A DNA stretch of 55,260 nucleotides, from positions 1-55,260 of the forward strand of contig JALEHU010000079.1 of NCBI GenBank assembly GCA_022770365.1, read 5' to 3'. Under the pieces are notes generated by a model, which did not search any database, was not told the DNA's origin, and saw only the letters and a program-made list of their open reading frames with translations. Within the stretch, counting starts at the first letter, position 1. Every line of letters starts with the position of its first letter. A program made the position numbers and the translations under genes. Shown here piece after piece: positions 13,631 to 17,015 of the stretch. Source of the stretch: Blautia sp. (lineage in GTDB: Bacteria > Bacillota > Clostridia > Lachnospirales > Lachnospiraceae).

Positions 13631-13672
13631 AAAAAACGAGGAAAAATGTTTATTTTTCCTCGTTTTTGTATT
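13631..13672. terminator. Bidirectional terminator upstream of putP
   Basis: AACGAGGAAAAAT and ATTTTTCCTCGTT form a perfect stem with a 4-nt loop, with A-run before and T-run after. On the minus strand it ends the xth / GH13-like / DUF5662 transcript. It is one of the strongest terminators in the window. Confidence 0.85.
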
Positions 13673-13714: not shown

Positions 13715-14272
13715 TTATACATTGTGATAACACTTTGGTCCCTCTTTCAAATAGACATGCTTAATATACTTCAGGGTCTTTTTTTCACCGTGCTGTGAAA
13801 GAATCCGAAGAAGTGCTTCCAGATCACGTTTCGTATTCGGATGAATGAACCACAGTTTCTCTTTGCCCTTCAGATAATACTCAAGAGGCTGCTGATCCGT
13901 ATATGCATCTCCCAGATAAGTTCGTGAGGCACTGATCCTGTCCATGACCATCTCGGCAACATATTTCCGCGGCATCTGTGCTCCCATGATCACATGTTTT
14001 CCGTCCAGTGAATAATCCACCCAATACTCAAAATGATGGCGGTTGCGTCCCTTGTGATGCAGCCAGGACATGGACACGCCAATGTCCTCTCTCTCCGCAT
14101 TATTAGGGCTCCTTGTTCCCTGATAGTATTTACATCCCACAAGAAATTCCGTGGGAGAATATTTGGACAGATCATGCAGAAGTCCCTGCTTATATAACCC
14201 GATACGGAAACAGTACTGCATCACCAGCAGCTTATGTTTCGTGATTGTCTTAAAATGCAGCCATGGATGCAT
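13715..14272 (-). CDS. DUF5662 family protein (HD-like metal site)
   Basis: A 185-residue soluble protein that matches my memory of DUF5662. It has His/Asp clusters arranged like a metal-dependent hydrolase: HK at 13-14, HDLSK at 33-37, and a distal HHKGRNRHH at 72-80 followed by EYW. The spacing resembles small HD-domain phosphohydrolases such as YfbR, but activity has not been shown as far as I know. It starts 11 nt after the stop of the GH13-like gene and is the last gene of the xth operon. Substrate unknown. Confidence 0.8.
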   Translation of the reverse strand: MHPWLHFKTITKHKLLVMQYCFRIGLYKQGLLHDLSKYSPTEFLVGCKYYQGTRSPNNAEREDIGVSMSWLHHKGRNRHHFEYWVDYSLDGKHVIMGAQMPRKYVAEMVMDRISASRTYLGDAYTDQQPLEYYLKGKEKLWFIHPNTKRDLEALLRILSQHGEKKTLKYIKHVYLKEGPKCYHNV

Positions 14273-14283
14273 CGTTTTGCCTC

Positions 14284-16137
14284 CTACCTGCCCAACAGCA
14301 CGACAATGGTGCGGGGCGAAATTTCAATGGTTTTGCTGTAAGTTTCTTCTGATTCTCCGAAATATACTTCTTCCTCAAAGCCTGAAGTATCCACAGCTTT
14401 TTTCCATGTTTTTCCATCAGGGAGATTCGGGAGTGCGATACTTCTGGATTCCCAGTGGAAATTGTATGCGATATAAATATGGTCATCCGGTTCTCCGTCT
14501 GTTTTTTTTGCATAGGCACCGCAGAGCATGACTCCAAGAAGACGGGAAGTATTCTCATAACTGCAGTACCATGCCCGTTCACTGTGAAAAGAGATATCCG
14601 GAAATCCTCTGGTAAGATAATCCACACCTTTCAGTCCTTCCGGCTGATGCAGTGCCGGATGCTCTTTGCGGAAAGCAATGGCATCTTTTACAAACTGAAG
14701 GAGTTTTTCGTTTTTCTTCAGGCCTTTCCAGTCGATCCACCCTGTGGCATTATCCTGACAGTAAGCATTGTTATTGCCTTCCTGGGAATTACCGATCTCA
14801 TCACCGCCATAGATCATGGGAACTCCCTGACTCAGCAGCATCATAAGAAAAGCGTTGCGCATCTGGCGTTCTCTGATCTGTCTGACGGCAGATTTGCGGC
14901 ACGGACCCTCGAAACCACAGTTCCAGGAATAATTATAGGTTGTCCCGTCCATATTATCTTCGCCGTTTCCTTCATTATGCTTATAGTTATAGCTGACAGC
15001 ATCCGCCAGAGTAAATCCATCCTGAAATGCCATATAGTGAACTGCTGTATGAGTACTGAAATTTTCTTTTACACGGTTTACCACTCCCGTTACCGTATCC
15101 TCGTCACTTTTCAGGAAACGGCGCATATCCTGCATGAATCCGGAATTGTATTCTGCAAGATACTTTCCTGACTGAAGATGTTCCTCCGGAATTTCCCACA
15201 CCGGAACATTGTCCATCATCAGTTTCGTCCTGGAAAGAACACCGTCTTTCAGCACCAGATTCACGGGAGCCCCTTCTCCGAGCATATGGAATCCATCAAC
15301 ATGATAATAAAGTTTCCAGAACTGAAGTGCACGCAGGGCAGTCAGCGGATTAATTTCCTTCGGAAAGTAAAATTCCATAATACACTCGATTCCTGCGCTG
15401 TGGAGCGCTTTTACAAGATCACGGAATTCCCTCTCCGGATGTGCCGTAGCGCAATAGGATCGTTTCGGTGCAAAATAAAAACCCGGTACATATCCCCAGA
15501 AATTAATTTTTTCTTCCTGTCTGGCAGATACAAGTCCGGAATACTCTGTCGGAACAGGCACCTCCATAAATTCATAAGAAGGCATCAGCTCAATGGCATT
15601 GATGCCAAGTTCTTTAAGATAGGGAATCATTTCCGCCAGTCCGCTGAAAGTTCCCCGTTTCTTCGCAGATAAACGGGCCTGTTTTGTAAAACCTCTCACA
15701 TGGAGCTTGTACAGGATCATTTCATCATATGAAACAGCCGGTGCACTATCATCCTCCCAGTCATATTTATCCTCAGAGAGGAATCCGCAGCGCACCCTGT
15801 GTTCATCCTCTTTGTTCCAGGCTTCTCCAAAATGCTCTCTTCCGGAAACGCGATAGGTACATGGATCCTGCTTTATTTTTCCGTCAATGCGGAAATTATA
15901 TTCATAATCTCTGGGCGAAAAACCGCCAAGACAAAGTGAACTGATACTTCCCGTCCTTTTTCCCTGCGAAAATGAAATTTCCTCTGCAGGTTCTTTAGAT
16001 TTTTTGTAATATAATAAAAGAAATGCTTCTGTATTTTCTGGTATTTCAACTGCAAAATTGTAGCCCTCTGTTACTTTGTTGGCACCAAGCGCCAATGGAT
16101 ATCCCTGCTCAATACGTGGAGCTTTCCGGACTGCCAT
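14284..16137 (-). CDS. GH13 isoamylase/GlgX-like protein lacking catalytic residues
   Basis: A 617-residue protein with the fold layout of glycogen debranching enzyme GlgX: an N-terminal CBM48-like domain (about 15-100), a GH13 barrel and a C-terminal beta domain. Several GlgX signatures are kept, such as KHNEGNGEDNMDG (386-398) and GNNNAYCQDN (454-463). The four catalytic regions are altered: region I reads EFYFPK (255-260) where GlgX has DIVLNH; region II reads DGFHMLGE (281-288) where the family has DGFRFDLA, so Arg becomes His and the nucleophile Asp becomes Leu286; region III KLMMDN (305-310) lacks the acid/base Glu of AEPWD; region IV FQDGF (371-375) has Gln for His. The loop between regions I and II is also shortened. 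It is probably not a hydrolase. The start at 16137 has AAGGAGGT 6 nt upstream. Confidence 0.88.
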   Translation of the reverse strand: MAVRKAPRIEQGYPLALGANKVTEGYNFAVEIPENTEAFLLLYYKKSKEPAEEISFSQGKRTGSISSLCLGGFSPRDYEYNFRIDGKIKQDPCTYRVSGREHFGEAWNKEDEHRVRCGFLSEDKYDWEDDSAPAVSYDEMILYKLHVRGFTKQARLSAKKRGTFSGLAEMIPYLKELGINAIELMPSYEFMEVPVPTEYSGLVSARQEEKINFWGYVPGFYFAPKRSYCATAHPEREFRDLVKALHSAGIECIMEFYFPKEINPLTALRALQFWKLYYHVDGFHMLGEGAPVNLVLKDGVLSRTKLMMDNVPVWEIPEEHLQSGKYLAEYNSGFMQDMRRFLKSDEDTVTGVVNRVKENFSTHTAVHYMAFQDGFTLADAVSYNYKHNEGNGEDNMDGTTYNYSWNCGFEGPCRKSAVRQIRERQMRNAFLMMLLSQGVPMIYGGDEIGNSQEGNNNAYCQDNATGWIDWKGLKKNEKLLQFVKDAIAFRKEHPALHQPEGLKGVDYLTRGFPDISFHSERAWYCSYENTSRLLGVMLCGAYAKKTDGEPDDHIYIAYNFHWESRSIALPNLPDGKTWKKAVDTSGFEEEVYFGESEETYSKTIEISPRTIVVLLGR

Positions 16138-16199
16138 AAAATACCTCCTTTTCATGTGTAATCTTTTATTTACGATGAAGCCTGCATCAGCAGACAGCA

Positions 16200-16952
16200 T
16201 CAGTTCAGTATCAGTTCAACGGGGCAATGATCAGATCCCATGATCTCTGTATGGATTGCAGCACTCTCCAGACGCTCTTTCAGGTCCGGTGAAACGATAA
16301 AATAGTCAATTCTCCAGCCGGCATTCTTTTCTCTGGCACGGAAGCGGTAGGACCACCAGGAATAAGCCTCCGCCTTTTCCGGATAAAAATACCGGAACGT
16401 ATCAATAAATCCACTATCCAGGACTTTTGTAAAACAGGCTCTCTCTTCATCAGTAAATCCTGCATTGTTCCGGTTCGTGGAGGGATTTTTAAGATCGATT
16501 TCCCTGTGTGCCACATTAAAGTCTCCGCAGCAGATCACCGGTTTTTTCTCCTGGAGTTTCAGAAGATATGCCAGGAAATCTCTCTCCCATTCCATTCTGT
16601 AGGAAAGGCGCCTGAGTTCACTCTGGGAATTCGGTGTATAGACGGTCATCGCATAAAAATCTTCGAATTCCAGCGTGATCACGCGTCCTTCTTTATCATG
16701 TTCTTCGATACCGATTCCATATGATGCTGATAAAGGTTCCATTTTCGTAAAAATCGCGGTTCCTGAATAGCCTTTCCTGTTGGCATAGTTCCAATATTGA
16801 TAATATCCGGGCAATGAAAGCTTCACCTGCCCTTCCTGGCATTTAGTCTCCTGCAGGCAGAAAATATCTGCATCCAGTTCCCGAAAACGCTCTTCAAATC
16901 CCTTTGTCAGGCATGCTCTGATTCCATTTACGTTCCATGAAATAAGTTTCAT
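16200..16952 (-). CDS. xth: Exodeoxyribonuclease III / AP endonuclease
   Basis: A 250-residue Mg2+-dependent endonuclease/exonuclease/phosphatase-fold enzyme for base-excision repair. It cuts 5' of abasic sites and has 3'-5' exonuclease and 3'-phosphatase activity. It begins MKLISWNVNGIRA, with the metal-binding Glu in IFCLQETKCQ, the catalytic GDFNVAHREIDL block and the terminal GSDHCPVEL. All are intact. It heads a three-gene minus-strand unit with the GH13-like and DUF5662 genes (62 nt and 11 nt gaps). A functional link among the three is not obvious. Confidence 0.96.
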   Translation of the reverse strand: MKLISWNVNGIRACLTKGFEERFRELDADIFCLQETKCQEGQVKLSLPGYYQYWNYANRKGYSGTAIFTKMEPLSASYGIGIEEHDKEGRVITLEFEDFYAMTVYTPNSQSELRRLSYRMEWERDFLAYLLKLQEKKPVICCGDFNVAHREIDLKNPSTNRNNAGFTDEERACFTKVLDSGFIDTFRYFYPEKAEAYSWWSYRFRAREKNAGWRIDYFIVSPDLKERLESAAIHTEIMGSDHCPVELILN

Positions 16953-16987: not shown

Positions 16988-17015
16988 ATTATAACACAGA
17001 ACTCTGTAATATGAA
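16988..17015 (-). promoter_or_regulatory. Promoter of the xth operon
   Basis: Minus strand TTCATA (17010-17015) and TATAAT (16988-16993) with a 16-bp spacer, 35 nt upstream of the xth ATG. Confidence 0.6.

Follow-up and report, generated by a model that had tools for sequence, protein, structure and literature searches.

Catalytic debranching enzymes of the GlgX/TreX/isoamylase group (GH13_11) are represented here by four references, namely GlgX of Streptomyces venezuelae (7u3b) and Escherichia coli (2wsk), TreX of Sulfolobus solfataricus (2vnc), and ISA1 of Chlamydomonas (4j7r). A noncatalytic member of the same subfamily is known from plants: according to PMC12510319, the paralogue ISA2 is retained throughout Chloroplastida with an elevated substitution rate, binds ISA1, and varies at four or more of the five invariant residues in every sequence examined there. 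PMC9530166 further reports that S. venezuelae GlgX is regulated by cyclic diguanosine monophosphate, whose contact residues are not conserved in TreX or in E. coli GlgX; this enzyme is catalytic, unlike the protein addressed here, and it shows that a protein of GlgX fold can also bind a ligand for a purpose other than catalysis. Here we analyzed a stretch of 55,260 nucleotides from Blautia sp. (Lachnospiraceae; contig JALEHU010000079.1 of assembly GCA_022770365.1; hereafter the window), which encodes a protein that we call pseudo-GlgX. As judged from its sequence, the window protein is a paralogue of debranching enzymes of the GlgX/isoamylase group (GH13_11) that is almost certainly non-catalytic. 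The clade to which it belongs is real, widespread, and undescribed in the sources searched, and it is a pseudoenzyme clade of a known kind of enzyme; no earlier account of noncatalytic GlgX proteins from these bacteria was found in the open-access literature searched, including passages of PMC4236520.

Set against the catalytic GlgX, TreX, and isoamylase proteins, pseudo-GlgX lacks the nucleophile, the acid/base residue, and the region I His, has about 44 fewer residues between regions I and II, and has mostly lost the CBM48 signature. Its closest functional analogue, by comparison of the two systems, is plant ISA2, with which it shares the status of a noncatalytic paralogue in one large clade, changes at four or more of the five invariant residues (157 of 168 sequences), and an elevated evolutionary rate. 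Unlike ISA2, pseudo-GlgX often occurs in genomes in which no catalytic partner was detected (106 of 162 genera), its predicted model carries no extra N-terminal β-sandwich, and it was seen in a single bacterial family in the searches made. From this distribution we infer an origin independent of plant ISA2, the tree described below being without plant sequences.

The pseudo-GlgX coding sequence occupies 14284..16137 on the minus strand (as do all features below unless stated otherwise) and comprises 617 amino acids plus stop. The preliminary description of this DNA had reported an intact frame and a good ribosome site, and direct reading agreed with both, placing the ATG at 16137 and a Shine-Dalgarno AGGAGG (CCTCCT on the forward strand) at 16144..16149, 6 nt 5' of it. 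The protein is homologous to GlgX/isoamylase over its full length, with TreX, ISA1, and GlgX as best PDB matches, and scores 340.1 bits against the GlgX equivalog TIGR02100 (NCBIfam), below the cut-off of 640.9. Alignment with 62 catalytic-type GlgX sequences revealed that the four catalytic regions are degenerate, as the same description had claimed from EFYFPK at residues 255-260, DGFHMLGE at 281-288, KLMMDN at 305-310, and FQDGF at 371-375, all of which were recovered at those residues. In region I (residues 255-261; 15355..15375), DVVFNHT is replaced by EFYFPKE, with the Asn and His gone. The segment that follows (residues 262-278; 15304..15354) has 17 residues versus about 61 in catalytic GlgX, in line with the shortening noted earlier. 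In region II (residues 279-288; 15274..15303), HVDGFRFDLA became HVDGFHMLGE, in which Arg gives way to His and the nucleophile Asp to Leu286, and in region III (residues 305-312; 15202..15225) KLIAEAWD became KLMMDNVP, with Asp309 in place of the acid/base Glu. Region IV (residues 369-377, MAFQDGFTL; 15007..15033) retains Asp373, as also claimed, and reads QDG for HDG, with Gln372 in place of His.

This loss extends across the family. Because we defined the pseudo class by a segment between regions I and II of less than 40 residues, the short segment in all 168 sequences counted (the partial L256 being excluded from residue counts) is definitional. That the 149 best matches retrieved from other genera all fall into this class, each with a segment of 16-19 residues and one or more catalytic residues missing, is not, and it places the degenerate state beyond chance. 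Among the 168 pseudo sequences, 2 retain the nucleophile Asp, 21 the acid/base Glu, and 41 the stabiliser Asp, versus 62, 62, and 61 of the 62 catalytic-type sequences, respectively. Four or more of the five invariant residues are missing in the 157 sequences given above, three in nine, and two in the other two. The nucleophile position is mostly occupied by Asn, Leu, Val, or Ile, and the two homologues with Asp in that column (L193 and L234) lack the full catalytic set. A new catalytic acid in the barrel was also sought and none was found among columns conserved at ≥80%, since each of the 15 columns in which ≥80% of pseudo sequences share an acidic residue has that residue as its commonest in catalytic GlgX too. 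Judging by these residues, pseudo-GlgX is almost certainly dead as a GH13 hydrolase. A shorter subgroup of about 560-590 residues also lacks, in the alignment, residues past the start of region III; its 15 loci (L183, L187, L190, L193, L194, L203-L205, L210, L212, L218, L219, L231, L233, and L235) lie directly behind a gene for an RbsB-like substrate-binding protein, and the similar L198 does not.

The distribution was examined in 200 genomes of the same family, one per genus, of which 164 matched the window protein. The best 149 of these matches (own genome apart) were retrieved, and the remaining 50 genomes, among them 15 of the 164 that had matched, were searched again with a profile, which added 12 genomes of the pseudo type, five on the strength of partial copies (G048, G074, G143, G147, and G189, the G048 fragment missing the motif columns), and 2 with catalytic GlgX alone. 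Pseudo-GlgX thus occurs in 162 of 200 genera, window genome included, which answers the question of whether orthologues in the same degenerate state exist, and no internal stop was present in any of the listed best matches. In the window's own genus, 20 of 21 genomes match. Among 96 genomes sampled across the order, pseudo-GlgX was found in 7 of the 9 belonging to the same family; of the 87 outside it, 11 match with catalytic-type GlgX only and 76 gave no match at E ≤ 1e-60. Of 148 genomes sampled across the class, 3 match at E ≤ 1e-115, and each of these belongs to the same family. Named carriers (19 of the 80 loci listed) comprise Lachnospiraceae metagenome-assembled genomes, Lachnoclostridium, Velocimicrobium, Anaerocolumna, and Roseburia, together with the vaguely named Clostridia, Clostridiales, Eubacterium, and "Bacterium", on which grounds we take the surveyed family to be Lachnospiraceae.

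In a tree computed without the motif columns, a single branch (support 100) separates the 35 pseudo from the 47 catalytic-type rows, which were picked for diversity (the former out of 169), and the pseudo end branches are mostly longer than the catalytic-type ones. This tree is unrooted and several of its long branches were flagged, so it gives no relative age for the pseudo clade and the catalytic groups. The pseudoenzyme also evolves faster than GlgX, with a median nonsynonymous rate (dN) 1.75 times as high and the larger value in 54 of 55 pairs. The designation as a conserved pseudoenzyme, which had been proposed from the window alone, is well supported by the family-wide catalytic loss, the single clade, purifying selection (low ratios of dN to the synonymous rate, dS, weighed below), and a predicted intact fold.

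That fold was inspected in a predicted model of the window protein, which has the (β/α)8 barrel with N- and C-terminal β domains; in a comparison with known structures using VIA-align, S. venezuelae GlgX tied for the closest match. The N-terminal sugar-binding domain had been described as strongly kept, and this stands for the predicted fold but does not extend to the sequence, in which 5 of 12 strongly conserved columns are retained family-wide (9 of 12 in the window protein) and CBM_48 is rarely matched. Columns conserved at ≥90% in catalytic GlgX were scored as surviving when conserved at ≥80% in the pseudo sequences. Few survive on the catalytic side (3 of 19 for regions I-II, 5 of 27 across β4 to β6), in contrast with 19 of 21 for β7 with its loop, 17 of 22 for β8 with its loop, and all 6 for the C-terminal domain. 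Of 130 columns conserved at ≥95% in catalytic GlgX, 66 are retained at ≥80%. PMC9530166 lists Trp222, Tyr224, His271, Asp342, Glu378, Trp380, and His449 of S. venezuelae GlgX as acarbose contacts, and Arg212, Glu470, Asn534, and Tyr536 as contacts to other sugars. For the mapping we used a Streptomyces homologue (L103) as intermediate, with His449 as the anchor; that sequence gave no placement for Arg212, and Trp222, Tyr224, and His271, which fall one position off under this anchor, were placed by their motifs. Equivalents of Glu470, Asn534, and Tyr536 are retained in 165, 168, and 158 of the 168 pseudo sequences, respectively. In the window protein they are Glu393, in the loop KHNEGNGE (residues 386-393; 14959..14982), and Asn457 and Tyr459, in the motif GNNNAYCQDN (residues 454-463; 14749..14778), the barrel-end signature that had rightly been called strongly kept. 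Among the motif-placed contacts, Trp222 is retained in about 99%, Tyr224 in about 88%, and His271 in about 1%, and the Trp380 column has Trp in 55 and Phe in 52. The retention of contact residues and β7/β8 columns indicates that selection acts on part of the sugar cleft outside its catalytic side, and glucan binding by pseudo-GlgX is, on this sequence evidence, probable. Separately, Lys225, His246, Asp506, Ser516, and His518 are 97-100% conserved in the pseudoenzyme, more than in catalytic GlgX, and may form a clade-specific site, partly in the C-terminal domain.

The preliminary description had also considered a partnership with a real debranching enzyme. Counting matches at E ≤ 1e-40, catalytic GlgX occurs in 58 of the 200 genera (11 further genomes matching only at about 1e-24 to 1e-21 were taken, presumably correctly, as carrying other GH13 proteins), and type I pullulanase in 49. 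Pseudo-GlgX accompanies GlgX in 56 genera and occurs without it in 106, GlgX occurs without pseudo-GlgX in 2, and 36 have neither. The pseudoenzyme is therefore present in 56 of 58 GlgX genera versus 106 of 142 without GlgX (Fisher p 1.2e-4, kinship not corrected), and the window's own genome has a catalytic GlgX (L270). Because many genera carry the pseudoenzyme while no catalytic GlgX was detected in them, an obligate partnership with GlgX can be discarded as a general rule, although the association would allow a part-time one. A partnership with type I pullulanase is likewise disfavored, as there was no association (41 of 162 genera with pseudo-GlgX versus 8 of 38 without, Fisher p 0.68). 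Absences can reflect incomplete assemblies, 164 of the 200 genomes being at least 90% complete with ≤5% contamination; among these better genomes, 138 match the window protein (E ≤ 1e-30) and 57 the catalytic segment (E ≤ 1e-20), so that the window protein is matched without the catalytic segment in at least 81. At the thresholds used, 77 of the 162 genera with pseudo-GlgX gave no match to catalytic GlgX or to type I pullulanase. With glgA scoring above its threshold in 194 of 200 genera, glycogen synthesis is general in the family, and the pseudoenzyme could serve it by itself.

In the window, pseudo-GlgX is preceded in the same direction by an xth-like gene (Exo_endo_phos; 16200..16952), before which lies a promoter-like site (16988..17015; 10 of 12 matches, with TG before the second hexamer), and is followed by a gene for a 185-residue DUF5662 protein (13715..14272), whose start lies 11 bases past the pseudo-GlgX stop. 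Beyond it, an inverted repeat of 16 pairs with a T tract (13632..13667, strand not assigned) is a candidate operon end; near-perfect over its 36 bases and bearing A/T tracts, it may be a two-way terminator between the DUF5662 gene and a sodium-symporter-like open reading frame. The order xth, pseudo-GlgX, DUF5662, described earlier as a shared operon, was found in 10 of 10 congeneric loci examined, but the limits of the operon are suggestive only, since the scans gave as many sites as shuffled sequence (8 promoters versus 7.7, 4 terminators versus 3.1). Across the family, neighbors were counted at the 168 of 169 loci with a located target (L223 had none), and 165 of these loci have a gene downstream. 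DUF5662 takes the first or second downstream place at 79 of the 168, a TraX-like membrane protein does so at 43, and both do at 16. Upstream neighbors are xth, gltX with a UvrD-type helicase, DUF1292, or ABC ATPases, the scanned representative of which is ABC-F. A DUF5662 match is present in 167 of 200 genera, some of which gave no pseudoenzyme (e.g., G002, G021, and G025), and absent from all 14 control genomes, so the linkage may be old synteny and DUF5662 is a weak candidate for a functional partner. No paper mentioning DUF5662 was found in the open-access set searched. Its AlphaFold2 model is mostly helical (mean predicted local distance difference test score 76.3), and eight aligned homologues share an invariant His/Asp/Lys pattern, HDxSK ... 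HHKGRNxHH; our guess from this pattern is that the protein is perhaps metal-binding or HD-like.

On balance, we lean toward the reading that pseudo-GlgX is a non-catalytic GH13_11 paralogue with a complete isoamylase fold, most likely binding α-1,4-glucan and acting as a free-standing sensor, adaptor, or protector. The catalytic half of the cleft, at the ends of β3, β4, and β5, would have been dismantled by the shortening of about 44 residues and the loss of the nucleophile, the acid/base residue, and the region I His; α-1,4-glucan chains would still be held by the half-cleft of β7/β8 loops and C-terminal domain; and the protein would serve glycogen-making cells as neither hydrolase nor obligate GlgX subunit. 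Its action as a stand-alone sensor or adaptor is a tentative part of this reading, and "sensor" or "scaffold", as first suggested, are roles that we infer. Several points weigh against it. The retained contact residues could reflect folding rather than binding, CBM_48 has no match in the window protein and matches 2 of 46 pseudo members at E ≤ 0.001 (a scan made without catalytic GlgX as control), and the model is biased toward the parent fold because 58 of the 78 rows in its alignment are catalytic-type. The neighborhood is one of housekeeping genes (xth, gltX, UvrD-type helicase, trpS, ABC-F, and topA), with no glycogen gene among the scanned neighbor-cluster representatives (not every neighbor was scanned), and the near-universal glgA makes its co-occurrence with pseudo-GlgX uninformative. 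Finally, three of the four low dN/dS values were obtained at dS above 1, and more distant pairs, at dS 1.85-3.2, gave 0.096-0.166.

Among the alternatives, a role as the non-catalytic member of a hetero-oligomer that includes a real debranching enzyme, like that of ISA2 beside ISA1, would fit the shared acceleration of both noncatalytic paralogues and the excess of pseudo-GlgX in GlgX genera, yet that statistic ignores kinship, 106 of 162 genera have no detected GlgX and 77 lack type I pullulanase as well, and the predicted model is without the additional ISA2 β-sandwich; we consider this arrangement unlikely. The same 77 genera, in a family where glgA is nearly universal, together with the five residues more conserved than in catalytic GlgX, could instead speak for a neofunctionalised enzyme with new active-site residues and a debranching or other α-glucan activity. 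This is more doubtful still, as no new conserved acid appears in the barrel (15 of 15 columns are shared with catalytic GlgX), the nucleophile position is mostly Asn or aliphatic (Leu, Val, or Ile), and the debranching enzymes searched as alternatives were GlgX and type I pullulanase only. A function outside glycogen metabolism, in a housekeeping locus shared with DUF5662 and a TraX-like membrane protein, draws on the recurrent downstream genes, the congeneric order, and the scanned neighbors free of glg genes; the presence of DUF5662 where the pseudoenzyme was not detected, the identity within the genus of 79-86% for neighbors versus 54-63% for the pseudoenzyme, and the retained sugar contacts count against it, and we give it little weight, about as much as the hetero-oligomer. 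A decaying relic of a duplicated glgX would account for the faster evolution, the freely varying catalytic motifs, and the 5 of 162 genomes with only a partial copy (contig ends or broken genes), but the lack of internal stops in the listed best matches, the 66 of 130 retained columns, the low dN/dS, and the breadth over 162 of 200 genera disfavor a pseudogene and render this scarcely credible.

The existence of such a clade bears on annotation, as similarity-based GlgX calls may count the pseudoenzyme. A gut survey (PMC10395257) reported two glgX homologues in Blautia obeum, one of which may be pseudo-GlgX, and its Glg calls used BLASTP at E < 1e-5 with ≥20% identity over half the length; given these thresholds, pseudo-GlgX would probably pass, and 106 of 200 genera could score GlgX-positive on the pseudoenzyme alone. 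For the biology of the family, we can tentatively picture this pseudo-isoamylase as a lone glycogen gauge, which might grip outer glucan chains with its retained half-cleft, report on or protect the polymer, and have outlived catalytic GlgX in most of the family. Plant noncatalytic isoamylases act with a catalytic partner, whereas a bacterial family common in the gut often keeps one without a detectable GlgX, which makes the role of a non-cutting debranching-enzyme fold directly testable in a simple system.
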